From a virus, in the IMG/VR virus record IMGVR_UViG_3300035210_000052, positions 1 through 47,328 of that record: a DNA stretch of 47,328 nt; one strand, 5' to 3'. Of the stretch, positions 12,386-43,246 are shown piece by piece. Numbering within the stretch: position 1 is the stretch's first letter; every line of letters begins with the position of its first letter. Below the pieces are notes generated by a model, which worked only from the letters and a program-made list of their open reading frames with translations, did no database searches and was not told the origin of the DNA. Position numbers and translations under genes: made by a program.

Positions 12386-12604
12386 ATGAGCGAACGACAG
12401 AAGGTGGTCATCGATGGTCGCTACACCTACGCCTGGCACGGTGAGCCGGTCGCCGTGGGCGACACGGTGCTCCTCCCCGAGAACTACGTGACGAGGATGA
12501 AGCTCGGCCCCGGGCCGTTCGCCGGAACGGTGACGGCGCTGGAGAGCACCTACGAGGGACCGCTGTCCCCGGTGCTGCGCGTGATCCACCGAGTCAAGTC
12601 CTGA
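12386..12604 (+). CDS. Hypothetical small beta-barrel protein
   Basis: 72 residues from ATG at 12386; an in-frame GTG at 12377 is an alternative. The pattern EPVAVGDTVLLPENY, then GTVTALESTYEGPLSPVLRVIHRV, resembles small SH3 or KOW-like barrels and echoes three other small genes in this genome (18690, 18934 and 20447). Function is unknown. It lies alone before the integrase control region. Confidence 0.6.
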   Translation: MSERQKVVIDGRYTYAWHGEPVAVGDTVLLPENYVTRMKLGPGPFAGTVTALESTYEGPLSPVLRVIHRVKS

Positions 12605-12609
12605 CAAGG

Positions 12610-12865
12610 GTTGTACTCGATCCCACTTCATCCCACACGTGGCTCACCAGCGGTCACCAACACTCGACAATCGGGACATATCGACCTGACGTCGAGATGG
12701 GAGCGGGAGTGACATAGCCGCAGGTCAGAGCGCGATTGCCCCCCACGCGGCCATCCCACTGGGTGGCGTGCAGACGTACTGGAAGTACAACTTGTCCGTG
12801 GCTTGACCTGCGGCTTTATGCGCTATCCCTCATCTATCCCACATCCCACACGGTAGGATGCCCTC
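12610..12865. promoter_or_regulatory. Putative attP and integrase control region
   Basis: No gene is seen. ATCCCAC occurs at least five times: near 12620, 12629, 12751, 12831 and 12841. Two copies extend to CATCCCACACG, one at each end of the region. Tyrosine integrases bind repeated arm-type sites flanking a core, so this layout next to the integrase fits attP. A 12-bp inverted repeat AGCCGCAGGTCA (12717-12728) and TGACCTGCGGCT (12805-12816) lies inside, and TTGACC followed by TATCCC may be the integrase promoter. The core crossover site cannot be read from this sequence alone. Confidence 0.5.
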
Positions 12866-14396: not shown

Positions 14397-15383
14397 TCAG
14401 CCGCTAATCGCCCTCACGTTGTCTGCAACCGGCGTGAACATCCGCTGCCCTCGGAAGATCTTGTCCCGCTGGACGCGGTCCACGCGAAGATCGAGATACC
14501 GCTCGGTCATGGTCACGCTCTCGTGGTGCAGCCACGTCGACACCGTGCGGATGGCACCGTCATGGCCCCGGTCTGACAGCTCCTCGTACATGGCCCGCGC
14601 CGCGCTCCTGCGGAGCGTGTGACCGCCCTCCCGGCTGCCCGGCTCTGCCGGGTACCCTGCGCGCCCTAGGACGGCTTGGATCACGTCGGCCAGGCGTGAC
14701 AGCGGGGCAGTGGGAACCAGGACCCTAGAGGACCCCTCAGGGCCTCCCCAGCGGTTGTTCGTGGCGAGCTTCCTGGGGTGCAGGTAGTAGCCGGGCGCCA
14801 GCCCGCCCATCTCTTCGGTGTAGAAGGTCATCCAGCGGCGCAGCTCATGATCCAGCTCTTCGCAGATCGGCATGGAGTCGCGGTCGGTGGTCTTCGAGAT
14901 CGTGACCCGGACGAACCCTGCGGCCAGGTCGACATCACCGACCATGATCTTCTGCGTCTCGCTGGCGCGCGTCATGAGGTAGAACCCGGTAGCCACGACC
15001 ATCCGCTCCAGCGGATGATCGGCGCAGTCCAGAACGCGGGCGAAGTCCCCACGGGGGATGAGCACTCCCTGCCGGGGCATGATCTTGTGCCAGCGGCGGT
15101 CGGCCAGCGGGTCGACGTCCATGTACTGCCTCGCGCGGGACCACTTGATGAACGCCTTGGTCGTGGACAAATCGGTGTTCAGCGTGGACCTGGCACAGGT
15201 CCGTGCCCTGACGGCCACGAACCGGTCGAACGCTTGCGCCGACAGCTCACGGCTGTCGATCTCGCCGGTCGCGTCGAGCAGAGCCCCGAGGACCCGTACG
15301 TCGTTGCGCAGGGTGTTGCCGGCGAAGCCCGAGGCTTCCCGGGCGGCCAGGTATTCGGTGATCACTTCACGGAGTAGGGGCAT
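14397..15383 (-). CDS. Second tyrosine recombinase, XerC/D-like
   Basis: 328 residues, leftward. A SAM-like core-binding domain (about 1-105) without an arm-binding extension precedes a catalytic domain with R139 (LMTRASE), K164 (ISKTTD), H255-x-x-R258 (GHTLRRS), H286 or H287, and Y296 (TERYLDL). All catalytic residues are present. The lack of an arm-binding domain and the XerD-like N-terminus suggest a recombinase for dimer resolution, for Xer-site integration or for inversion, rather than a lambda-type integrase. Having a second intact enzyme on the opposite strand is unusual. Confidence 0.88.
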   Translation of the reverse strand: MPLLREVITEYLAAREASGFAGNTLRNDVRVLGALLDATGEIDSRELSAQAFDRFVAVRARTCARSTLNTDLSTTKAFIKWSRARQYMDVDPLADRRWHKIMPRQGVLIPRGDFARVLDCADHPLERMVVATGFYLMTRASETQKIMVGDVDLAAGFVRVTISKTTDRDSMPICEELDHELRRWMTFYTEEMGGLAPGYYLHPRKLATNNRWGGPEGSSRVLVPTAPLSRLADVIQAVLGRAGYPAEPGSREGGHTLRRSAARAMYEELSDRGHDGAIRTVSTWLHHESVTMTERYLDLRVDRVQRDKIFRGQRMFTPVADNVRAISG

Positions 15384-26722: not shown

Positions 26723-26752
26723 CGATGTCTCCTAATGTCCGGGTTCGGAACG

Positions 26753-26800
26753 TTCGCCCTACTGTAGACGGTTGTGACTAGCCGTCACTACTGTCTCTCA
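26753..26800 (-). promoter_or_regulatory. Candidate leftward promoter with palindromic operator
   Basis: Reading leftward, GTGACG, 16 bases, TACAGT could be -35 and -10 elements about 40 bp before the DUF4258 gene. The spacer carries the inverted repeat GTGAC-TAGCC-GTCAC (26774-26788 on the plus strand), so a dimeric repressor could block the promoter. CTACTGT also occurs twice nearby. This is judged by eye only. Confidence 0.35.
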
Positions 26801-26851
26801 GTCCTGGGCCGTTCGGGGGATGTGTCGGGCGTGTCGCTATGCACACAGAGA

Positions 26852-26880
26852 AGGGCGGTGCCCCCGTGGCACCGCCCAAC
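26852..26880 (-). terminator. Hairpin terminator after the WhiB-like gene
   Basis: Reading leftward, GGGCGGTGCC and GGCACCGCCC form a stem of about 10 bp with a short G-rich loop, followed by TTCTCT. It lies directly after the WhiB-like gene and would separate it from the ParB-like operon. Confidence 0.6.
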
Positions 26881-26886
26881 CCTTGA

Positions 26887-27833: not shown

Positions 27834-28160
27834 TCATGCCGCGATGAACTGCCGACGCGTGAGCGTCGAGCCGTTCTCGGCGAACCAGTCGCGCAGCTCC
27901 TCACTCGCGGACGCGAGGGAGGCACCCGGCAGGAACAGGCGGGCCACAGAGACCCCACGCGCCCACGCGGAGCGCGTCAGCAGGTGCCCCCGGCACTCGG
28001 CCTCGGCCCGGTCGCGCCGGGCCTCCAGGTAGGCACGCCAGGCGGCGTGCTGCTCCAGCAGTCGGGAACGGTTCCACCCAGCGGCAGTGCAGAACTGTCC
28101 GAGTGAGTTACGCAGGCACCAGTACACGCGCCCGCTCGGCGTCCATCGGTACTCCACCAC
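27834..28160 (-). CDS. Hypothetical basic helical protein
   Basis: 108 residues from GTG with TAGGAG upstream. It is rich in Arg, Ala and Trp, with a long helix (LLEQHAAWRAYLEARRDRAE). The composition would suit nucleic-acid binding, but no motif is recognised. Confidence 0.55.
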   Translation of the reverse strand: MVEYRWTPSGRVYWCLRNSLGQFCTAAGWNRSRLLEQHAAWRAYLEARRDRAEAECRGHLLTRSAWARGVSVARLFLPGASLASASEELRDWFAENGSTLTRRQFIAA

Positions 28161-28235
28161 GACTGATCAACTCCTAGTAGGCGCAGCCCCACGGTCAGAT
28201 CGTCACACCGCGACCTGACCATGAGGCAACGTCGG

Positions 28236-28472
28236 CTAGTCGGTCGGCAGGACGCGCAGCTCGCACCACCCGAGGGCCCCGCGCCCGCACTCCTCCAGCT
28301 CGGCCACCAGGGCCGCCGTAGCGGCCCCGCTGTAGTGGAGGCCAGACAGGTACGCACCCGGCCCCGGGTTGTCCGCGATAGCGGTCGTCAGGGCCTCCCT
28401 GACGTCGGTCCCGGTGCCGGTGAAGGTCTCCCGGTAGTTGCCGTGCCACACCTTGACCTCGACGGTGACCAT
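28236..28472 (-). CDS. Hypothetical small protein
   Basis: 78 residues. VTVEVKVWHGNYRETFTGTG is a beta-type start, followed by a helix with VREALTTAIAD, then a Cys-Trp-Cys end. The ATG sits in the GAACTGATCATG cassette, two bases after the upstream stop. Function unknown. Confidence 0.6.
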   Translation of the reverse strand: MVTVEVKVWHGNYRETFTGTGTDVREALTTAIADNPGPGAYLSGLHYSGAATAALVAELEECGRGALGWCELRVLPTD

Positions 28473-28474
28473 GA

Positions 28475-28756
28475 TCAGTTCTCCAGTCGTGAGACAGCGA
28501 AGGTGACGTGTTCGCAGCCCTGCGCCGTCCAGCGGCGGACGACCCGGCTGCTACGGGTCTTCTCGGGGTACATGAGCGCGCGGCGGGCGAGCCTGCGCAT
28601 GCGCTCGATCGGAAGACCCCCGACCCAGCACCCGGCGCCCAACGTCTCGCGCACCGTCACGCATAGCGTGCCGTTGAAGTCCCAGCTTGTGTCAGTGATC
28701 ACGAGCATGCCGTCCCGCGACGTATCGCCGATCTCGAAAACGCCATTCTTGTCCAC
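28475..28756 (-). CDS. Hypothetical small protein
   Basis: 93 residues from GTG after a GGGAGAGG site. VFEIGDTSRDGMLVITDTSW is a beta hairpin region, and a basic helix (IERMRRLARRALMYPEKT) follows. Its stop is joined to the next start as TGATCATG. Function unknown. Confidence 0.55.
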   Translation of the reverse strand: MDKNGVFEIGDTSRDGMLVITDTSWDFNGTLCVTVRETLGAGCWVGGLPIERMRRLARRALMYPEKTRSSRVVRRWTAQGCEHVTFAVSRLEN

Positions 28757-28773
28757 GGTTCACCTCTCCCTGA

Positions 28774-28833
28774 TCTGTAAGCGGAACGCGCGGCCGATTC
28801 CCCCGGATCGGCCTCACGCACTGCCGGCAGATC
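28774..28833 (-). repeat. Intergenic hairpin element, copy 4 (divergent)
   Basis: An outer stem TGATCTG/CAGATCA encloses GGCCGAT/ATCGGCC. The flank CTGTAAGCGGAACGCG corresponds to the CCGTAGGTCCAAC flank of the other copies. It lies between the ArdA gene and the 93-residue gene. This copy is the most diverged of the four. Confidence 0.45.
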
Positions 28834-29368
28834 ACTGCCAGAAGTAATGCGTCTCTCCGTCCACCCGCGCGGTCCAGAAGTCCAGACCCTGCGCCACGGA
28901 ATCCCAGTCGATGCAGTACTTGATCATCGCGGGCAGGTCGTCCAGGTCATAGCCACTGTTGTCGAAAAACTCTTGTGCGAAGTCGCGGTCACTCTCGGCC
29001 GTGCCCGCGTAGGCATCGGTGAACCTGTCGGACGTGGGCGCGTCCCATTCGGTGATCGTCTCGCCGTTGTTCTCGGCCCACGCGCCGACCACGGAGGCGT
29101 CGAAACCCTCGGACTGGATGTCCTCGATCACGCGCGCGATGCGCGCGGCCTCCATCGGCGAGCACTCGCCGGACAGGAAACCGCCGAAGCCCTCGTGATC
29201 CAGTACCCACAACTCCTCGTGACCCTCGCTCACGTGGTAGGGCCCGGGGCCCTCGATCTTGTCCGGGGTGATCTCGTCACCTTCGGTGGCGTCCATCCAC
29301 TGCCCTGCCAGGGTCCCGCCGTTGTAGCAGCCGAGACAGCCAACCCAGATCTTCGGTTCCAGCTTCAT
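28832..29368 (-). CDS. ardA: ArdA-like antirestriction protein
   Basis: 178 residues from ATG at 29368 preceded by GAAGGGAAACGATC. KIWVGCLGCYNGGTLAGQW, then ELWVLDHEGFGG and the acidic FDNSGYDLDDLPAMIKYCIDW segment match the ArdA family, whose members mimic bent DNA and block type I restriction enzymes. Length and high acidity fit the family. It would protect phage DNA on entry, and its location in the leftward block suits early expression. ArdA supports the view that this block is for establishment. Confidence 0.88.
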   Translation of the reverse strand: MKLEPKIWVGCLGCYNGGTLAGQWMDATEGDEITPDKIEGPGPYHVSEGHEELWVLDHEGFGGFLSGECSPMEAARIARVIEDIQSEGFDASVVGAWAENNGETITEWDAPTSDRFTDAYAGTAESDRDFAQEFFDNSGYDLDDLPAMIKYCIDWDSVAQGLDFWTARVDGETHYFWQ

Positions 29369-29442
29369 GATCGTTTCCCTTCGCTTGACGGACCATCGCC
29401 AGGTCAGAACGTAACAGCGGGCTCTGACTTGACGAAAGCGGG

Positions 29443-29778
29443 TCACGCGTTCTCGTGCTCCGAACGGGTGATGTACTTCGCCACCTCCACACGCGTGTAG
29501 GTGTCATCGGTGTACCGCACGAGAATGCCTGTCCAGAACGAGTCGGAGACGTACCCGTGCCACACGCGGAACGCGGCGGGGATGCCGTTCTGGCATGTGC
29601 TCTCCAGGTCGTGAAGGTCGTACGTGTGGCCCTTGTACCGGAAAAACTCGGGCCAGGTCTCGCCGTTCTCCACCTTCGCCGGGTCGATGTAGCTGAATGC
29701 CTCTCGCTCGGCATCGGTCAGATCGAGCCAGGAAAGGACGTCGCGCGGCTTGCGGTTCGTGATGATCTCGGTTGTCAT
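29443..29778 (-). CDS. Hypothetical protein adjacent to ArdA
   Basis: 111 residues from ATG at 29778. A much longer open frame extends upstream but crosses other genes and is not credible. RKPRDVLSWLDLTDAEREAF, then TWPEFFRYKGHTYDLHDLES and VWHGYVSDSFWTGILV make an acidic, aromatic-rich protein. It may be a second DNA-mimic or anti-defence protein by location, but that is speculation. The start is coupled to the upstream stop by TGATCATG. Confidence 0.65.
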   Translation of the reverse strand: MTTEIITNRKPRDVLSWLDLTDAEREAFSYIDPAKVENGETWPEFFRYKGHTYDLHDLESTCQNGIPAAFRVWHGYVSDSFWTGILVRYTDDTYTRVEVAKYITRSEHENA

Positions 29779-29780
29779 GA

Positions 29781-29987
29781 TCAGTTCCCTTCGGTGAATG
29801 ACTCGGAAGACCGACGGGTCTCCCGGTGAATGCGCGCAAGGTCCCGGATCGACCGCACGTAAATCCAGATCACCCAAGCGCAGCCGTAGAAGGCCAGCGC
29901 AGGCCACACCGCAACGGCGCCGACCCATGGGACCAGACACGCGGCGAAAGGGAGCAGGAACAGGACTCGGACGACCGACCGGACCAC
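29781..29987 (-). CDS. Small membrane protein, two helices
   Basis: 68 residues from GTG. Two hydrophobic helices (VVRVLFLLPFAACLVPWVGA and VWPALAFYGCAWVIWIYV) are followed by a charged tail (RDLARIHRETRRSSE). It would sit in the host membrane. Such early phage proteins sometimes block superinfection, but nothing in the sequence proves it. Confidence 0.65.
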   Translation of the reverse strand: MVRSVVRVLFLLPFAACLVPWVGAVAVWPALAFYGCAWVIWIYVRSIRDLARIHRETRRSSESFTEGN

Positions 29988-29990
29988 TGG

Positions 29991-30215
29991 TCAGCCCTCC
30001 GTAACGAGGGTGATCTCCCACCGGGTGACCTTGCCGGACGTGGGGTGATCGGAGCGGAATCGGAGACCCGGGGTCTCCGGGTCGTTGTTCATCCGAAGGT
30101 CTGTCACGAGTGCGGACACGACCCGCATCGGGTCGGTCGTCACGTAGTCGGACCACTTCGCTTCTGTTCCGTCGTCGCACATGAGCCACGCTCGGACGCG
30201 GTAGGACAGGGTCAC
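29991..30215 (-). CDS. Hypothetical small protein
   Basis: 74 residues from GTG, just before the membrane-protein gene. SYRVRAWLMCDDGTEAKWSD and GKVTRWEITLV are beta-type ends around a helix. No motif is recognised. It is closely spaced with its neighbours. Confidence 0.55.
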   Translation of the reverse strand: MTLSYRVRAWLMCDDGTEAKWSDYVTTDPMRVVSALVTDLRMNNDPETPGLRFRSDHPTSGKVTRWEITLVTEG

Positions 30216-30218
30216 AGG

Positions 30219-30398
30219 TCAGCCCTCCTCGGTAATGACGTCGACCACGTTGACGCGCGTACCCGCGCGGTTGTGAGCTGCGCTCACCATGTCGCCCGGG
30301 CCGTTCGGCGTGACTCGGTCGCCCGAGTCCACGTGAACCCAGGCCATACGGTCGCGGTCGAATGTCACCCGCCCGAGGCAGTACCCGCAGATCTCCAT
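30219..30398 (-). CDS. Small CxxC protein
   Basis: 59 residues. ATG at 30398 is chosen because GGAG lies six bases upstream. EICGYCLGRVTFDRDRMAWVH holds one C-x2-C pair and a His, perhaps half of a zinc site completed by a later His or by dimerisation. Function unknown. Confidence 0.6.
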   Translation of the reverse strand: MEICGYCLGRVTFDRDRMAWVHVDSGDRVTPNGPGDMVSAAHNRAGTRVNVVDVITEEG

Positions 30399-30430
30399 GA
30401 TCATCTCCGCCTTCTGCCGGCGTGGCCGGC

Positions 30431-30492
30431 ATGATCCGTAAACCGAACAGGTGACCGGGCCCGTAGGCCCGGCCGCCCGCATGGTCGGCGGC
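30431..30492 (-). repeat. Intergenic hairpin element, copy 1
   Basis: Plus-strand flanks ATCCGTAAACCGAACAGG and CCCGCATGGTCGGCGG bracket a stem CCGGGCC-CGTA-GGCCCGG (30455-30472). The flanks match copies 2 and 3, and the stem sequence differs but still pairs. It lies between two leftward genes. Confidence 0.65.
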
Positions 30493-30494
30493 TC

Positions 30495-30830
30495 TCAGCT
30501 CTCGCGCGACGGGTGATTGAGACACCACGTAGCGAGCAGGCAGAGCTGCCACCACTCGGCGCTGTCCTTGCCGTACACGCTCACGCACTCATCGAACGTT
30601 GCCGAGAGGTCATCGGCGAACAGCTCCAGGCTCACGTGTCCGGTGCTTGCCAGGGTTGCGAAGTGTCGGCCGACCCCGGACGGAGCCTGCCAGCCCGCGA
30701 CAATGGCCATAGCCACGGTGTCAGGGATCTCGGTCTCTCGGTTGCGGTGGCACTCGGTCTCCACTTCCGCAGAGAGGGCCTGTCGCGTCGACACGGTGAG
30801 CGTGTCGGTGCCGTGATACGTGCCGTTCAT
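30495..30830 (-). CDS. Hypothetical acidic protein
   Basis: 111 residues from ATG at 30830. The N-terminal half has VSTRQALSAEVETECHRNRE, and the C-terminal half VSLELFADDLSATFDECVSV followed by WWQLCLLATWCLNH is acidic and aromatic. No motif is recognised. Structured repeat copies lie on both sides. Confidence 0.6.
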   Translation of the reverse strand: MNGTYHGTDTLTVSTRQALSAEVETECHRNRETEIPDTVAMAIVAGWQAPSGVGRHFATLASTGHVSLELFADDLSATFDECVSVYGKDSAEWWQLCLLATWCLNHPSRES

Positions 30831-30843
30831 CGTTCCTGCCTTC

Positions 30844-30897
30844 CGTAGGTCCAACAGGTGGCACGCCGTAGGCGTGCCGCCCGCAAGATCGGCGGTT
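30844..30897 (-). repeat. Intergenic hairpin element, copy 2
   Basis: Flanks CCGTAGGTCCAACAGG and CCCGCAAGATCGGCGG bracket stem GGCACGCC-GTA-GGCGTGCC (30860-30878). Copy 3 shares almost the same flanks with a different stem. CCGC/GCGG in the right flank can form a second small hairpin. Confidence 0.7.
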
Positions 30898-30898
30898 G

Positions 30899-31156
30899 TC
30901 AGTCGATCGGCTGGCCTGCCAGCCACGTGGTGAATGCCCGTTGCATGCTCGGCATCATGCCCTCACGGTCGCATCGGAATGCCCGTTGACGCGTCGCGTA
31001 GTCGCGCGCGAAATCGAACGGCTCGCCTGGCAGGCTCGCCCCGAAGTCCTTCGCACCCCACGCGTACCACAGCGCTTGCGTGAAGCTCCGAACGTCATTC
31101 GGCTCATGCGTGAGCATGGTCACCGGGGCCACGGGCCCGAACGGTAGGCGCGTCAC
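30899..31156 (-). CDS. Hypothetical protein
   Basis: 85 residues from GTG overlapping the upstream stop. VRSFTQALWYAWGAKDFG and FDFARDYATRQRAFRCDREG suggest a compact helical protein. No family is recognised. The GTGA overlap couples it to the preceding gene. Confidence 0.55.
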   Translation of the reverse strand: MTRLPFGPVAPVTMLTHEPNDVRSFTQALWYAWGAKDFGASLPGEPFDFARDYATRQRAFRCDREGMMPSMQRAFTTWLAGQPID

Positions 31157-31395
31157 CGGATGAACCGAGCATAGACACGGATCTCTGCGCCGATCTTCCG
31201 CACGGTGGCCTGATATCCGGCCCCGTACTCGCGCCCGTCGTTAATGCGAGCCTCCGTGGTCTCGGCGCGCGCCATACGGTCGGGCCGCATGACGACTGCC
31301 CATTCTCCCGGACGGCTTTTCAGCTCTGCCGCAATGTCACCCCGTGACATCACGTGATCCGTGCTCTGCGGGGGACGTTCGAACGTGAGCGCCAT
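31153..31395 (-). CDS. Hypothetical small basic protein
   Basis: 80 residues from ATG at 31395, after GGGAAAGTGATCACC. SRGDIAAELKSRPGEWAVVM, then YGAGYQATVRKIGAEIRVYA has an alternating helix-strand pattern with a basic surface. It might bind nucleic acid. No family is recognised. Confidence 0.6.
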   Translation of the reverse strand: MALTFERPPQSTDHVMSRGDIAAELKSRPGEWAVVMRPDRMARAETTEARINDGREYGAGYQATVRKIGAEIRVYARFIR

Positions 31396-31414
31396 GGTGA
31401 TCACTTTCCCTTTC

Positions 31415-31478
31415 GTTGGTCCGTAGGTCCAACGGCAGACCCGGCCGTGAGGCCGGATCTCCCGCAAGATCGGCGGTC
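31415..31478 (-). repeat. Intergenic hairpin element, copy 3
   Basis: GTCCGTAGGTCCAACGGC and CCCGCAAGATCGGCGG flank stem CCGGCC-GTGA-GGCCGG (31441-31456). GTTGG and CCAAC in the left flank pair as well, giving two consecutive hairpins. It is placed between two leftward genes, like the other copies. Confidence 0.7.
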
Positions 31479-31479
31479 C

Positions 31480-31974
31480 CTAGCGGTCGAACAGAGTGAA
31501 CGCGTAGCGCGTCCCGTGAAGGTGACTGCCGCACCCGTCGCACGACCGTGAGCTGTACTCGCGTGTCTCGCAGTCGCAGTCGGAGTCGCGCGGGCCGTCC
31601 GGCCCGTTGGGGCATTCCTCGGCGTGCTCTCCACCCATGGCGATGCGGTGGTAGTGGCCCTCCCACAGAGCGAACGGAGCAGGCTCGGAAGGGTCACCAG
31701 CGTGTGACTCGGTACGGATGTCCACACCGTTCGCATGCATGAGCATGCACGTGGGGCAGACCCAGAGATCGGACATGACCACGGGTCGGTCGCCGTGAAC
31801 TTCGGTCACGAGTCGGTGCGTGAGGACCTTACGACCGTGCTGCGGGTCGATGTGATTCAGGTCCGCGAGGACTCGGAGCATCGACAGGGATGCGGTTGCC
31901 AGGATCTCCCGCGCGTGGCTTGCGCCGTCGGACTGCTGCAACAGATCGTTAAGGATCTCTGACTTGCTGGCCAT
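31480..31974 (-). CDS. Hypothetical zinc-binding protein
   Basis: 164 residues from ATG at 31974. A helical N-terminus (SKSEILNDLLQQSDGASHA) and a region with VCPTCMLMHANG and several histidines (EGHYHRIAMGGEHAEECP) lead to DSDCDCETREYSS and SCDGCGSHLHG. Nine cysteines plus histidines suggest two or more zinc sites. It belongs to the leftward small-gene block. Family unknown. Confidence 0.65.
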   Translation of the reverse strand: MASKSEILNDLLQQSDGASHAREILATASLSMLRVLADLNHIDPQHGRKVLTHRLVTEVHGDRPVVMSDLWVCPTCMLMHANGVDIRTESHAGDPSEPAPFALWEGHYHRIAMGGEHAEECPNGPDGPRDSDCDCETREYSSRSCDGCGSHLHGTRYAFTLFDR

Positions 31975-31976
31975 GA

Positions 31977-32114
31977 TCACTCGCCTGCCAGAATGCCACT
32001 GCACTGAAGCAGGGTCACAAGCTCACGGGCCCACTGCTCGGCCATTTCCTGCTTGCCGCACTGCTTATACGCAATGGCCTTCGCCAGTGCCCTATTGATC
32101 TCCGTGCGATCCAT
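31977..32114 (-). CDS. Small helical protein (45 aa)
   Basis: 45 codons from ATG at 32114 with GGGAG upstream. It encodes MDRTEINRALAKAIAYKQCG, then EMAEQWARELVTLLQC, a two-helix bundle-like peptide. The stop lies two bases before the next ATG in the TGATCATG arrangement. It is the first gene of the leftward block after the 1-kb control region. Confidence 0.65.
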   Translation of the reverse strand: MDRTEINRALAKAIAYKQCGKQEMAEQWARELVTLLQCSGILAGE

Positions 32115-32296
32115 GATCCAACTCCCTGTTTCGATGAGACCGGGCCGAACAATGCCGACACTCCTCTTTGTGGCTCCAACGTGTCAATGGGTTTCACCCG
32201 TTCGGCTCACCGATCGGGGACCATGATCCATCTGCCACCCGTGTGCACAGGAGAGCAGGGGACGGGAGCACGCACGGGTGCCAGCCACGATCATCG

Positions 32297-32312
32297 ATAC
32301 CCCCGGGGGTAT
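32297..32312. promoter_or_regulatory. CsoR-operator-like 16-bp palindrome
   Basis: ATACCCCCGGGGGTAT is a perfect 16-bp palindrome. The TACCC...GGGTA half-sites resemble operators of CsoR-family copper sensors in actinobacteria. It lies about 180 bp upstream of the leftward block. Regulation by a host CsoR is inferred from the pattern only; a phage repressor could equally bind. Confidence 0.4.
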
Positions 32313-32454
32313 GCGGTCACGCGTGGTGGAGGTAGGGACATGGGTCTGGACAGTGAGCAGAGTTGGCCCATGATCGGTGATCTTGGCTCACCCGGGTAAC
32401 AGATCATGTTGAAGAGCTCCGACTTTCGTGCAAGTCTGCCCAACCATGATCAAC

Positions 32455-32473
32455 TAAGGCTAGCCTAACCTAA
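32455..32473. promoter_or_regulatory. DtxR/IdeR/DmdR-type iron box
   Basis: TAAGGCTAGCCTAACCTAA agrees with the actinobacterial iron-box consensus TTAGGTTAGSCTAACCTAA at 17 of 19 positions, counted by eye. DtxR-family repressors bind this site with ferrous iron. It lies in the control region upstream of the leftward ArdA-containing block, so host iron status might control early or lysogenic expression. Confidence 0.6.
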
Positions 32474-32586
32474 CTTGATCTTGCTCAGCCCATGATCCAC
32501 TGTCCGTTTCGTCCGCTTGACCCCGGGTTGTTATATTCCGTGTGCCCCCCTCCCCGGCTACTATCACCCAAGATTTTTTTTCCCAG

Positions 32587-32608
32587 CAGGGGGGCGGCAG
32601 GGGGGCGG
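32587..32608 (+). repeat. Tandem G-rich 11-bp repeat
   Basis: CAGGGGGGCGG occurs twice without a gap, just after a T8 tract. The two G6 runs and GG pairs could form a G-quadruplex on the plus strand. The AT tract beside G-runs is also reminiscent of unwinding or pause sites. Function is not known. Confidence 0.55.
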
Positions 32609-32709
32609 TGGAACGCAACGTTGCAGGTCAGGCGCTTGTGGCCTGCCCCCGAGCCGAGGTACATCAACGGTGTGATGCAGGTCTCACTGCTTAAGTGGTG
32701 GTTCGCATT

Positions 32710-33037
32710 TCATTGAACTGATTTCAATGAGACCTAGTGGTGTAGAAGTTGTGAGCGAACCTGGTCGGTTCGCGAATAACAACGGCAGCGGTCATCCGCA
32801 TGACCGCGTTGCCTCTACGGCGGGAGCAACAAGCTCCCGCCTAGTACATAAACAGCAAGCAAGGGCGGCCCGGGGCCGCCCCTACTGGTTACAGAAGCAT
32901 CCCCTGTAGGGGATGCCGCTGAAGCCCTTCGCAGGGCACCCGAAGGTGCCCCACGCAAGAACGACCCCGCAAGGGGTCGTCGGAAGCTGCGCTTCCTTCC
33001 TCCTGAATAACAACCCCGTCAGCAGACGGGGTTGTTA
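32710..33037 (+). ncRNA. Array of eleven hairpins, possible structured RNA
   Basis: Eleven inverted repeats follow each other: 32710-32730, 32755-32773, 32788-32807, 32819-32841, 32863-32881, 32897-32916, 32924-32937, 32934-32951, 32961-32980, 32982-32996 and 33008-33037. Stems are 5 to 13 bp with short loops such as CCGC, TGTA, CGAA, GCAA and AGCA. Sequences differ, so this is not a simple repeat array. The seventh and eighth share bases and exclude each other. The last is a 13-bp stem that may act as terminator. No open frame explains it. It could be a noncoding RNA, a DNA-structure origin or a packaging signal. Confidence 0.55.
33008..33037 (+). terminator. Strong 13-bp hairpin, terminator-like
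   Basis: TAACAACCCCGTC pairs with GACGGGGTTGTTA around AGCA. The downstream CCTTTTT run starts about 10 bp later, so the fit to a classical terminator is imperfect in the rightward direction. It closes the hairpin array 110 bp before the first virion gene. Confidence 0.6.
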
Positions 33038-33146
33038 CGCGTGGACCTTTTTCGCGGACAGGTAGGTCAGATCTCAACACCGTGATGAGCCGACGCTGCG
33101 CGACGGCTCAGCGGTCCAGCTCTCCGAAACCGAAGGTGAATCAACC

Positions 33147-37870: not shown

Positions 37871-40800
37871 GTGTCGTTCTGGGATTCCGTGGGCAAGTGG
37901 TTCGATGAGACCGAGGGCAACCTCGGCGCCGCATGGTCGAACGCCTTCGAGGACTCCGACGACACGTTCATGCGCAGCATGTCCACTGCCGTCAAGGAAA
38001 ACGCTGGCGTCAGCCCGCTCACGCCGATGGACCTTGCCGGCAGCGCCTCGAGTGTCATCGCCAACGCCGGGGCCAAGTACGTCGCCGCCCGCGACGCGGC
38101 CAGCGCCAGGGACACGGGCATCGCCCCGTTCGACTGGCTGCGGAAGACCTCGTTCTATCAGCACCCCGAAGAGAACACCCTCGGCACGCTCTCGCGCGGC
38201 ATCGCCGCCGCGATGATCAATGACCCGTTCAACGGCGGGAACCCGCTGTCCTTCAGCGACTGGAAAAGGTCCATCGCGCTGACCGGGACGCACACGGTTG
38301 AGGGACAGGAAGTCCGGGGCATCACCTTCGGCAACCTGGTTGCCGGGGACCTCGGCAAGGGCCCGAAGCGCGGGGGTCTGGGCGACGGAATGAACGACAG
38401 CCTTGCGGCTGCACAGCAGCGCAAGGTGGCCTACGACGACTCGTGGTCCGGCAAGATTCTGTCCGGCGTTCTCGACGTCGCCATCTCGTTCGTCTCCCCG
38501 GCAACGGGAATCGCCAAGGCCGGTACGGCTGCGCGCATGCAGGGCGGCCTCGTCCGCACGGGCGAAGCGGGCGCCACCATGGATTCCGCGCGGGCCCTGG
38601 CCCTGGTCAAGGACGATGTTCCTCCGACTGCCGCCCCCGACACCCTTCCCGGCCTTGATGTTCCGGCAGGCATTGATCCCGTCGCCCGCATCGAGCCCCT
38701 GGCCGAGGTGCAGGTTGACCGGGTGGCCGCCCGGATCAATGAGATGTCCGACTGGGTCATGACGAACCAGGCGCAGCCAGCGCTCATTGCGAACCATGAC
38801 TTCCTGAAGGGCTCGTCCGAGCGGGGCACCCTTGCCTACATGTTCTCGCAGGCGGAGAGCAAGGACGACGTTCTCGACCTCATTGGCACGGTCATCAACG
38901 ACCCGAACAGCGCGAAGAAGCTGATCGACCGCAGGGCCGACCTGGCGGAACAGCTCCACGGCTTCGGCAGTGTCACCGATGAGACCCTTGCCATCGAGAA
39001 GTACCTCGTGGACGGCCACGGTCAGACGTTCCTCAACCTCGCCAACTCCAAGGTTGACAGCGACATCGCTCACCGTGAGCAGGACATCATGGAGGAGATG
39101 GCGCGGCTTGACCGCGTCCTCGCCATCCGTGGCGAGCAGGAATTCATTCCCACGACGTACAACTGGCGCGGTGAAGACCTCATCGATGATGACGGTCTCA
39201 TGGTGTCGGAGCTGCGCAACGGGCTGTCCGGTCGCGTGGTCTCCGTCGCCAAGTACCAGTTGGGTACCCGCCTGTCCGGCCACATCAACATCGCCGACCC
39301 GTCCGAGGGTTACGCGCAGCTCAACAACCTTCTGCGCCAGGCGCGCTACGTGAGCGGCACCATGCGGGCCGAGATCATGGCTGACTTCGCACGGGCTGCG
39401 AGCGACAGCGCTCGGCAGACCGTTGTCATGAACGCCGAGGGCGCCGTCGTCAAGGGCATCGCCAAGGAATACGACCTGACGGAAGAGCTGGCGGCGCAGA
39501 TCCTCAAGGAGGGCACGGCTCGCCGGGCCCCCTACCGCGACATGATGGCCAAGCGTGCCTACAGCGCTGCCCCCGGGCAGAAGCTGATCGCCGTTGCCGA
39601 CCCCGAGTCGGGGCAGATCGTCATTCGCGAGACCGCGCACCTGCGGTCGCAGATCCAGGACTTCGTGCCGTTCATCGACCCGAACCATGTCGACAAGATG
39701 CTGCGCGAGGCCACGGACAATCAGACCCTTGACATCATGTTCGGCCGCAAGGCTGGTGATCGGCTGCATTCCGTGACCGATCCCATGAGCGAGTTCGCCA
39801 GAGCCAAGCTCATGACGTTCACCCGTGGGTGGAAGGATGCGCAGCTCATCCCCCGCGCCTTGCCGTACATCCAGCGTAACCAGATCGACGGCCAGCTCCG
39901 ACTGATCACCACGATGGGCGGGCAGGCGTACGCCCGCGAGGCGCACGCCATTGCGACCATGGGGGCCAAGGGCGCCAGGATCATCGCTGGCAAGGCTCGC
40001 CAGGTGCTCAAGCCGACGGGCAAGGGATTCGAGGACGACGACTACGCCGCCGTTGTTACTGAACATCTCAAGTCGGCCAGGATCAATCTGCCCGGTGGGA
40101 AGACCGCCCCGGCGTTCGACCCCGACGATATCGACCAGGCCATCCGCAATGTCCGGGCGACCGGCGGCTCGCACGTGGACCTCGGGTCCGAGCTGGCCAA
40201 CGTCAAGCTCCAGCAGTACCGCGCCTCGGGTGACTATGACGTCATTAAGCCCGGGGACCCGGCGCACATGGATTCCTACCTCGCCGCGTTCCGGCAGATG
40301 CAGTACAGCCCGATCTCGCTTGCCATTGCCGAAGGCAAGTCCATGCGACAGCTCGTTGACTTCGTCCGCCGCGACGCGGGGGCCAACGAGGAATGGCTGA
40401 ACGTCATGGCGGGCTGGCACGGGTCAATGGAGGACTGGCTGCGCGAGACGCGCAAGCTGGTCAACTTCTACCTGCCTACTCCCGAACTGCGTGAGTTCCT
40501 GGTCGGCCGGCAGGCCGTTTCGGCGGTCCCGGATTCGACCCAGAAGATCAACCTCTACCCGGAGGGTCCCACTGCGTGGGCCGCAGGTCCGCCGAACGAG
40601 AAGGGCCGCGTGGCCTGGAAAGAGGGACCTGCGCTGTACCACGGCGCAGCCAAGCGGTTCAACCAGAAGGCGCTTGCCGCTGATCCCTCGCTCACCTCGG
40701 GTTCGGGCAACATCCTCGGTAGTGGCCTGGCCGCCATCGACCACCCGGACATCGCCCGCAAGTTCATGACCAAGGACACCGGAGCGCTCTACAGCATTCA

Positions 40801-43246
40801 GTGGAAGGGCGACAAGAAGCCGAAGATCCTCAACCTGGAGACCTCGGCCATCAAGGACCTGCGGACATGGGTCAGCAAGACCCTGAAGTCCGTGAACGGC
40901 CCGCAGGAAGCCAAGGACGCGCTTGTCGCCAGGATCGCCGACAGCGCCGTCTCGGACCGCAAGGTTCTGGTCGAGCTGCGCGCATACATGACCGAAGCCG
41001 GAATGGCGAAGAGCGACATCGACAAGTCGTTCGCCGATCTGACCAAGCGCATGTCCAAGCGTTGGGACGCGGTGCGTCACTCCAGCGGCATCCCTATCGA
41101 GGGCGGCGACAAGCCGCACTCGGTCCTGGTTTTCCTGGACAGGTCCAAGGTGTCGGCCAACTGGATGCGGACGTCGACCTCGCGCCATGTCCCCGGTAAG
41201 CCCGGTGTTGACGCGACCGAGCCGCGCGACTTCACCTCGGACGACTACAACCGCTTTTTCGACCCGCAGAACGGCACCGTCACGCCGATGCAGGTTCACG
41301 GTAAAGGCTACAACCCGCTAGAGCGCAGCGACGCTGACTCGTACTGGCAGGAAGCCCGCACCCGGATCTACTCCCTGATCTCGGACGCGCCGGAGAATGT
41401 GATGGTGCGGTTCCCGCTCTACAAGTGGGATTATCAGCGTCAGCTCCAGCGCCTGGTCGAGAGTCACCCCGCACCCGTCCTGTCGCAGGAGGACTTCGGG
41501 CGGTACCGGGTTGTCGCGGATCGCCTGGCCCGCAAGACCGCCAAGCGGACTCTGTTCGACTCCAGCGACGTCACGAACCTGGCCCACACCATGCGGTTCA
41601 TCGCCCCGTTCTGGGGCGCATGGGAAGACGTTATGAAGAAGTGGGGCCGTCAGTTCTACGACAACCCCGCCGCCCTCATGCGGCTGAACACGGTCTGGCA
41701 GATCCCCAACCGCATGAACCTGGTTGAGGACGACCGGGGCTACCGAGCGAACGAGAACGGCGACCGCTACAGCGCGGCGACCGGGTACCTCGTCAAGGCA
41801 GAGAACCTCATCGGCAAGCGCGAGGGGTTCATCCTGCCGGCGGGACCAATCGGGGAGTGGCTCCACGAGAAGAACTTCTGGTGGGACAAGGGCAGCTTCA
41901 ACTCGGTGTTCCAGGGAGAGCACTTCTGGCTTCCGGGCTTCGGTCCCCTAGTCGCGGTGCCGACCAACGAGGTCATCAAGCGCATCTGGCCCGAAGCGGC
42001 CACCGACCCGATCATCGAATCGATCCTGCCCTACGGCACGAGCAACAAGGGTCCCGTGGACCAGAACCTCCCCGCATGGGCGCGCCAGGCGCACAATGCG
42101 TTCGGCAACACCGATGACCACAAGAACGTGTTCAGCAACTTCTACAAGCAGGTGTACGCCGAATACCAGGCGGAGCATGACCTGTGGGTCGCAGGGGGCA
42201 AGGTCGGCGAAGAGCCGCAGGAGCCTAGGCCGGATGCCGCTGCCAACCGCACGAGGAATCACTTCCTCCTGCGGGTGCTGTCGGGCCTGACGATGCCGTT
42301 CTCGGTGACACCGAAGCCTGAGTTCCAGTTCTACATCGACCAGGCCAATGCCATGCGTCAGCAGTACGGCAGCCCGGCGACCACCCCGGAGTACAAGGCC
42401 AAGCTCGCGACGTACGTCGAGAAGTACGGGAAGGCCACCGCCGAGAAGCACCTGCTCACGGAGAACCCGGAGCTTCGCGACTGGCGGACGCGGTTCATGG
42501 AGCAGTACCCCGAGTACTACAACTTCGCCATTCAGCTCTCGACGTCCGAGTCCGGGGTCAACATGAACCTCGCCTCGGTCACCGCGTACGAGCAGTACGG
42601 GAAAGAGCTGCAGAATCTGGCGAACCCCGACTCGGCTGCCGCCATCCTCGGGCCGGACACGGCCTATGGCCTGGACGACAAGCACGCCTATAGCGATTCG
42701 GCGCGGGACTACATGCTCACGCATGGTCTGCGCAGGATCATGGAGCCCGGGGAAGCACTCAAGAAAGCCGAAGCGGACAAGGGCTGGGTTCAGTACCAGC
42801 AGGTTCGCACCAAGGTCGACCTGATCCTGGAGTCACGCGGACTTACCTCGCTCAACCAGAAGGGCGCCGATGACCTTCAGAAGATCCTGAAGGATTTCGT
42901 TACCGAGCTGGGTGCCGAGAACCGGTACTGGTACAAGGACTATGGCGACCGGAGCACCACCAGTACTCAGACGTTCCTCGCCGATGTGAACAAGGCCACG
43001 ATCCGCAACAAGGAACTTGCGGCGCGACCGGACATGGTCGCCATGGCGCAGTACATCGAGGTGCGGAACAAGATTCGAGCGAAGCTCGATGAGCGTGGCC
43101 TCTCGCAGATCGACAGCAAGGGCGCCGAAGATCTCGCCGCCGTGTGGGACCAGTTCTCCGCAAGCCTCGGCGCGGAAACGCCGGGCTTCGGTCAGGTGTG
43201 GACCCGCTATCTGGAAACCGACAAGGTCGTAGGGAGGATTGGCTGA
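37871..43246 (+). CDS. Giant virion protein, probable internal or ejection protein
   Basis: 1,791 residues from GTG with AAGGAG upstream. It is mostly helical and charged, without membrane helices that I can see. Around residues 915-1000 the pattern ALYHGAAKRFNQ, then LGSGLAAIDHPDIARKFM and ALYSIQWKG resembles mono-ADP-ribosyltransferase folds, which is only a suggestion. No transglycosylase signature was seen. Short-tailed phages often package one very large protein that enters the cell with the DNA, and the position after the portal fits that. A second conserved-type segment lies near residues 1300-1450 with many aromatic residues. Confidence 0.7.
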   Translation: MSFWDSVGKWFDETEGNLGAAWSNAFEDSDDTFMRSMSTAVKENAGVSPLTPMDLAGSASSVIANAGAKYVAARDAASARDTGIAPFDWLRKTSFYQHPEENTLGTLSRGIAAAMINDPFNGGNPLSFSDWKRSIALTGTHTVEGQEVRGITFGNLVAGDLGKGPKRGGLGDGMNDSLAAAQQRKVAYDDSWSGKILSGVLDVAISFVSPATGIAKAGTAARMQGGLVRTGEAGATMDSARALALVKDDVPPTAAPDTLPGLDVPAGIDPVARIEPLAEVQVDRVAARINEMSDWVMTNQAQPALIANHDFLKGSSERGTLAYMFSQAESKDDVLDLIGTVINDPNSAKKLIDRRADLAEQLHGFGSVTDETLAIEKYLVDGHGQTFLNLANSKVDSDIAHREQDIMEEMARLDRVLAIRGEQEFIPTTYNWRGEDLIDDDGLMVSELRNGLSGRVVSVAKYQLGTRLSGHINIADPSEGYAQLNNLLRQARYVSGTMRAEIMADFARAASDSARQTVVMNAEGAVVKGIAKEYDLTEELAAQILKEGTARRAPYRDMMAKRAYSAAPGQKLIAVADPESGQIVIRETAHLRSQIQDFVPFIDPNHVDKMLREATDNQTLDIMFGRKAGDRLHSVTDPMSEFARAKLMTFTRGWKDAQLIPRALPYIQRNQIDGQLRLITTMGGQAYAREAHAIATMGAKGARIIAGKARQVLKPTGKGFEDDDYAAVVTEHLKSARINLPGGKTAPAFDPDDIDQAIRNVRATGGSHVDLGSELANVKLQQYRASGDYDVIKPGDPAHMDSYLAAFRQMQYSPISLAIAEGKSMRQLVDFVRRDAGANEEWLNVMAGWHGSMEDWLRETRKLVNFYLPTPELREFLVGRQAVSAVPDSTQKINLYPEGPTAWAAGPPNEKGRVAWKEGPALYHGAAKRFNQKALAADPSLTSGSGNILGSGLAAIDHPDIARKFMTKDTGALYSIQWKGDKKPKILNLETSAIKDLRTWVSKTLKSVNGPQEAKDALVARIADSAVSDRKVLVELRAYMTEAGMAKSDIDKSFADLTKRMSKRWDAVRHSSGIPIEGGDKPHSVLVFLDRSKVSANWMRTSTSRHVPGKPGVDATEPRDFTSDDYNRFFDPQNGTVTPMQVHGKGYNPLERSDADSYWQEARTRIYSLISDAPENVMVRFPLYKWDYQRQLQRLVESHPAPVLSQEDFGRYRVVADRLARKTAKRTLFDSSDVTNLAHTMRFIAPFWGAWEDVMKKWGRQFYDNPAALMRLNTVWQIPNRMNLVEDDRGYRANENGDRYSAATGYLVKAENLIGKREGFILPAGPIGEWLHEKNFWWDKGSFNSVFQGEHFWLPGFGPLVAVPTNEVIKRIWPEAATDPIIESILPYGTSNKGPVDQNLPAWARQAHNAFGNTDDHKNVFSNFYKQVYAEYQAEHDLWVAGGKVGEEPQEPRPDAAANRTRNHFLLRVLSGLTMPFSVTPKPEFQFYIDQANAMRQQYGSPATTPEYKAKLATYVEKYGKATAEKHLLTENPELRDWRTRFMEQYPEYYNFAIQLSTSESGVNMNLASVTAYEQYGKELQNLANPDSAAAILGPDTAYGLDDKHAYSDSARDYMLTHGLRRIMEPGEALKKAEADKGWVQYQQVRTKVDLILESRGLTSLNQKGADDLQKILKDFVTELGAENRYWYKDYGDRSTTSTQTFLADVNKATIRNKELAARPDMVAMAQYIEVRNKIRAKLDERGLSQIDSKGAEDLAAVWDQFSASLGAETPGFGQVWTRYLETDKVVGRIG

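Follow-up and report, generated by a model that had tools for sequence, protein, structure and literature searches.

What are the hairpins that lie in the wide gaps between the small genes of IMG/VR virus record IMGVR_UViG_3300035210_000052, and what could they do there? The window that we analysed is the whole record of 47,328 nucleotides (47.3 kb), in which small genes form a block that extends leftward from about 32.0 kb. A preliminary description had reported four copies of a hairpin element between genes of this block, with central stems that differ in sequence and still pair; all four are indeed present, on the minus strand and in wide gaps, and we set their exact limits by trimming the coordinates to the structure. 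They are element 1 (31421-31476, in the gap 31396-31479 between the genes 31480-31974 and 31153-31395), element 2 (30843-30895, gap 30831-30898), element 3 (30436-30491, gap 30399-30494) and element 4 (28775-28830, gap 28757-28831). Elements 1, 3 and 4 are exactly 56 nt long and align without a gap, the divergent element 4 included; element 2 measures 53 nt. The common flanks that had also been described hold only in part: CCGTAGGTCCAAC and CCCGCAAGATCGGCGG are exact in elements 1 and 2 only, CCCGCAAGATCGGCGG carries 2 mismatches in element 3, and element 4 has few letters left in common.

On the mRNA, the four copies fold into one shared irregular rod of about 25 bp. Read from 5' to 3', its outer part consists of a CCG/CGG or CUG/CAG stem, a 2x2 loop CC/UA, and a G-C or G.U pair; in the middle follow an A.C position that is paired in two of the copies, then two to three pairs, a U.U mismatch, and a G.U followed by GCGG-type pairs; one further mismatch then leads to an apical stem of 7-10 bp closed by a loop of 3-8 nt. 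Element 1 thus reads CCG/CGG, CC/UA, G.C, A.C, UCU/GGA, U.U, GCGG/CCGU, a variable stem of 10 bp and a UCAC loop. Element 2 has the same rod with a variable apical stem of 8 bp and a 3-nt loop, element 3 has it with compensatory changes in the outer and apical stems, and element 4, whose letters have diverged and whose outer stem is CUG/CAG, keeps the length, the mismatches and the pairing. The sequence of the apical stem is free and G.U wobbles are present in the rods; the CC/UA and U.U mismatches are identical in all four copies while the paired letters vary.

Both partners have changed in 10 of the 23 pairs, where the shuffles give an expectation of 5.4 and only 1 of 500 attains 10; 90.1% of the cells are paired, compared with 76% in the shuffles, and none of the 500 reached the observed values for cells paired, cells with both-side changes or covariation score. 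Sliding the partner by one column lowered the pairing to about 44%. Besides the central stems, the outer stems were found to covary as well. One should bear in mind that there are only four sequences and that the structure was read from those same four, which is why an independent test matters. A covariance model built from the four copies (model R1) was searched against 659 kb on both strands, and its best match outside the training copies is 28175-28238 on the minus strand, with E 0.007 (E 0.0005 when the window alone is searched). This fifth copy (element 5, 64 nt), overlooked in the preliminary description, sits one wide gap further along the operon of the training copies; it retains the CC/UA loop, the A.C position and the U.U mismatch, its outer stem UAG/CUA includes the stop codon of the upstream gene 28236-28472, and its helical length is 23 bp, compared with 25-29 bp in the other four. 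The in-genome covariation, joined by this copy found from the model, bears out the RNA structure that had been put forward, and we consider that structure close to certain. Since the letters vary between copies while the fold is kept, the folded shape itself is under selection.

The position of the elements is as regular as their fold. A long hairpin is present in each of the seven gaps that measure at least 68 nt between 26174 and 31974. Tested against dinucleotide shuffles, every one of them has p 0.005-0.01, and z goes down to -4.1; a reversed-sequence control was discarded, because reversal preserves self-complementarity and the comparison is therefore uninformative. Five of the seven belong to the model R1 family and two are of another build: an irregular hairpin of about 22 bp at 29392-29439 (minus strand, p 0.01 against shuffles), which model R1 does not match, and a hairpin at 26847-26883 (minus strand, p 0.01 against shuffles) of the form AGGG-UU-10 bp-UU-CUCU, which has the UU/UU architecture seen in Streptomyces phage WRightOn, yet is terminator-like too (26853-26877). 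In the seven wide gaps, the start of the hairpin is no more than 0-4 nt away from the upstream stop codon; six of the hairpins end 12-34 nt ahead of the next start, and in the 164-nt gap 26723-26886 this distance is 124 nt. All the elements are oriented like the genes. The remaining junctions of the block overlap or are at most 3 nt apart, except for two short gaps (30 and 41 nt), so the elements tend to separate translation-coupled gene groups. We also considered whether protein could be encoded across the elements; read in frame with the downstream gene, elements 4 and 5 contain a stop, and such coding is therefore not general.

The window has no near DNA relatives in our phage collection, exact patterns found no letter-level copies of the elements in viral contigs or cellular genomes, and protein searches with three neighbouring genes against viral contigs and with the terminase against genomes found no relatives. 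The terminase shares about 40% identity with its counterparts in Streptomyces Beephvirinae phages, and similar rods occur in most wide gaps of the matching leftward block, which contains ArdA, in five of these phages; with the window included, 37 of 52 gaps have a rod at p<0.05. For one orthologous gap, the alignment of seven Streptomyces phages, built without reference to structure, has 95.1% of its cells paired and both-side changes in 11 of 21 pairs (0 of 500 shuffles). A set of 12 Streptomyces-phage rods gives both-side changes in 13 of 17 pairs; this set was picked by pairing, so only the orthologous alignments are unbiased. Model R2, built from the 12 rods, finds more members in gaps of Streptomyces phages, on the coding strand; one position in these rods, a G-C pair with a mismatch on either side at 16-18 bp from the loop, is fixed.

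The gap hairpins of the Beephvirinae are thus like the window rods in position, size, covariation and style of mismatch, whereas the start motif differs (ACAAGGGRGAGAG) and the covariance models fail to cross-recognise: model R2 reaches at best 14.9 bits (E 0.11) on the window, and model R1 has no significant match beyond it, with E 0.3 for its best match in FlowerPower/Estes. The search of other actinophages that the preliminary description had proposed therefore had a mixed outcome, with no significant matches of the window model and with the same position, size and covariation in Streptomyces phages and in a Mycobacterium phage. The architecture is common to these phages; because neither model recognises the other's rods, we do not take common descent as demonstrated. 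We found no description of such intergenic elements of Beephvirinae in the open-access literature. Among the 4227 models of Rfam, only two tRNAs were found in the window at the gathering score, and none matched 28100-31600 with E up to 1; a weak match of CRISPR-DR29 in Streptomyces phage Manuel, below the gathering score, was taken as chance.

Several further observations were made in the Streptomyces phages. In one gap of each of five phages (L026:38055-38178, L024:38397-38501, L027:38037-38138, L028:37840-37941 and L029:38996-39115, all on the minus strand), a hairpin of 29-38 bp has covarying stems, and its loop and following bases are invariant, CUCUCUCCCCC; this is the complement of GGGGAGAGA, the start-associated sequence that precedes many genes in these phages, and it is possible, from this complementarity, that the hairpin could be an antisense regulator of all the GGGGAGAGA genes. 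In alignment A6 (Manuel L026:41936-42034 and orthologues), conserved flanking hairpins, UCGCN...NGCGA on the 5' side and one of 7 bp on the 3' side, are an alternative to the outer stem of the rod (90.5% of cells paired, 0 of 500 shuffles), which suggests two states. In WRightOn, a rod and the start-associated sequence (L028:40993-41060) lie within the annotated gene 40499-41047; the start annotated for this gene is probably placed too far upstream. On the late strand, model R2 has further matches directly past the gene for the major capsid protein, with E 0.0003-0.006 (L028:20011-20048, L026:19933-19970 and L031:19949-19986, plus strand).

The closest known kind of element is found in mycobacteriophages. 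In cluster M, stem-loops lie upstream of the conserved repeats CR3/CR4, according to the summary of Pope et al. 2014 given in PMC7953290. In the cluster M phage Estes, we examined 13 wide gaps and found hairpins in 12, each followed by the start repeat; several of these gap hairpins are the best matches of model R2 in this genome (E 0.0002-0.008). As in the window, most wide gaps of the leftward accessory block hold a long irregular hairpin between the stop codon and the start that follows. The mismatch pattern is different, however, and the window has its own start motif, TGATCATGG; the CR3/CR4-type start repeat (CACACGGAGAAGGGAA in Estes) is missing at the window starts, where other motifs are found. 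In some Estes rods (L035:14118-14206, 14669-14762 and 12597-12701), the 5' arm reproduces, letter for letter (ACACGGAG...), the start-associated repeat found ahead of the next gene as well. In cluster K, start-associated sequences (SAS) with upstream inverted repeats (ESAS) are known (PMC3203893); like the window elements, they recur ahead of start codons in the non-structural genome half. The 17-bp inverted repeats of ESAS keep their letters, and their discoverers considered RNA pairing unsupported (PMC3203893), whereas the arms of the window elements vary in letters and keep the pairing. The 13-bp SAS of cluster K, GGGATAGGAGCCC, is not enriched in the window (3 weak matches, 1.4 expected).

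What might such rods do? The good candidates left are RNA processing, protein binding and passive protection of mRNA ends. Our tentative first choice is that the rods serve for intercistronic mRNA processing by host ribonuclease III (RNase III), in the manner of phage T7; it is ranked first because the helix has about two turns, because the T7 early sites are alike in size and position, and because Streptomyces RNase III cuts mRNA stem-loops. A helix of 25-29 bp makes about two turns of A-form RNA, which is the size required by RNase III, and all five copies have a near-continuous helix of about 20 bp or more between genes, as would be expected of an RNase III site. The T7 early gaps with which we compared them, which hold known RNase III sites between early genes, have like-sized hairpins (an apical stem of 9-13 bp, then internal loops) at the same position upstream of the next ribosome-binding site. 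Cleavage of mRNA stem-loops by RNase III is documented in Streptomyces (PMC12096830). The elements are structured parts of a polycistronic leftward mRNA, located only where two genes lack translational coupling. According to this proposal, host RNase III would cut the long transcript within the rods, and cutting would leave protected ends and release each gene group as a separate message; the upstream message would close with a structured 3' end and the downstream one would open with a defined leader, which would let the gene groups be expressed, and decay, independently of one another. The fixed mismatches would be accounted for by irregularities that limit cutting. That the rods are cut, that RNase III cuts them and that cutting sets expression we infer from these likenesses.

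Some of our observations weigh against this proposal. The T7 sites share their apical sequence while the window rods do not. The 47.3 kb record encodes no RNase III gene, and the host enzyme is therefore assumed. In the window alone, G.U outnumbers A.C on the mRNA strand by 11 to 5, which is not significant on these small numbers (p 0.53). The fixed mismatches, moreover, could equally be the signature of protein binding. The rods might bind a phage or host RNA-binding protein and so have each gene group controlled in its translation, stability or antitermination, with the mismatches as the recognition surface: the CC/UA and U.U mismatches are invariant and one G.U is fixed amid stems that vary freely, and the Streptomyces phages have their fixed G-C between two mismatches at a constant range from the loop. 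However, no candidate protein was identified, the distances from element to start vary widely, and the mismatch patterns differ somewhat between phages, which makes one shared ligand unlikely; we thus see protein binding as possible but somewhat improbable. Passive rods, acting as 3'-terminal barriers to exonucleases or as pause or termination signals that end gene groups without specific cleavage, seem rather unlikely to us, even if strong hairpins directly behind stop codons and one terminator-like hairpin among the seven (26853-26877) are what such a role would leave. None of the five core copies has a U tract after the stem, so that intrinsic termination finds no support for them; the rods stand inside the operon just ahead of starts, with no promoter-like site nearby (as judged by the sigma-70 pattern only), and a plain barrier would have no need for fixed mismatches.

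Whether the elements act as DNA or as RNA also has to be weighed. As DNA, they could be operator-like inverted repeats, as proposed for the ESAS of cluster K, single-strand recombination sites resembling attC that separate gene cassettes, or spacers that promote gene exchange; the cassette-like separation of small genes, mostly without a known family, would suit this, as would GTTGGAC, which occurs in two copies and fits the attC core GTTRRRY. But that core fits only two of the five copies and its partner RYYYAAC is absent from the other end, so that we rejected attC membership; DNA-binding sites keep their letters, while here letters change in compensating pairs; and all copies are oriented as the genes. 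In the Streptomyces phages, G.U exceeds A.C on the mRNA strand by 79 to 28 (p 0.016 against composition). This excess, together with the compensating changes, the fixed orientation and the fixed mismatches, favours elements that act as RNA, and a role as DNA is quite improbable. Least probable of all, in our opinion, is a translational switch in which the rods mask or expose the ribosome-binding site of the following gene. They do lie just upstream of the Shine-Dalgarno sequence (SD), and flanking hairpins can replace the outer stem in Streptomyces phages; however, SD accessibility in the window is about equal with and without the element, so the rods do not bury it. Complementarity between the 3' arms and the start region does not exceed that of shuffled arms, with a mean z of 0.2 in the window and 0.0 in the Streptomyces phages, and we rejected such a switch; in Estes, anti-SD complementarity of the 3' arms follows a weak trend (mean z -0.9).

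The genes around the rods, all on the minus strand, can be followed in the direction of transcription. Upstream of element 1, the gene 31480-31974 belongs to phrog_3034, of unknown function; downstream, 31153-31395 (phrog_2660) has a stop codon that overlaps the GTG start of 30899-31156, which is thereby overlap-coupled to it and precedes element 2. Between elements 2 and 3 lies 30495-30830, without a known family, and downstream of element 3 lies 30219-30398, after which 29991-30215, 29781-29987 and 29443-29778 follow no more than 3 nt apart, without an element. Element 4 separates 28832-29368 from 28475-28756; the former is an ArdA-like antirestriction gene (phrog_2059, E 4.8e-18), with a counterpart in the matching block of Beephvirinae phages. 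The gene 28236-28472, 2 nt from the preceding one and with the start context TGATCATGG, lies upstream of element 5, and 27834-28160 lies downstream.

The sequence GATCATGG occurs 11 times in the window, where 2.0 occurrences are expected (0 of 100 shuffles); eight copies are on the minus strand at 28.4-32.5 kb (28469-32497), three of them exactly at the start codons 28472, 30398 and 31974, and GATCATGG is a start-associated motif of the window phage. The stretch 31975-33146 (about 1.2 kb), which separates the leftward block from the terminase side, has few convincing genes, five GATCATGG copies and strong hairpins (one of them, 32858-32886, terminator-like), and is likely to serve as control region for the early block.

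Actinophages have been known since 2011-2014 to carry start-associated repeats with stem-loops upstream of them; as far as the accounts in PMC3203893 and PMC7953290 go, they were given no function and their pairing as RNA was doubted. Pairing is now shown by compensating changes within one genome, by a fifth copy found blind and, in cultured Streptomyces phages, by orthologous gaps, and the old question on actinophage stem-loops thereby becomes testable. It is conceivable, though we hold it as doubtful, that RNA rods, conserved in shape and free in sequence, which host machinery would recognise from their geometry only, are a standard mRNA-processing or insulation device at the boundaries of coupled gene groups in many unrelated actinophages, including those of Streptomyces and Mycobacterium and the window phage. 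Should the rods prove to be processing sites, they would have to be included in the operon maps of these phages and in models of their expression, and they would be useful as parts for polycistronic constructs in actinobacteria.

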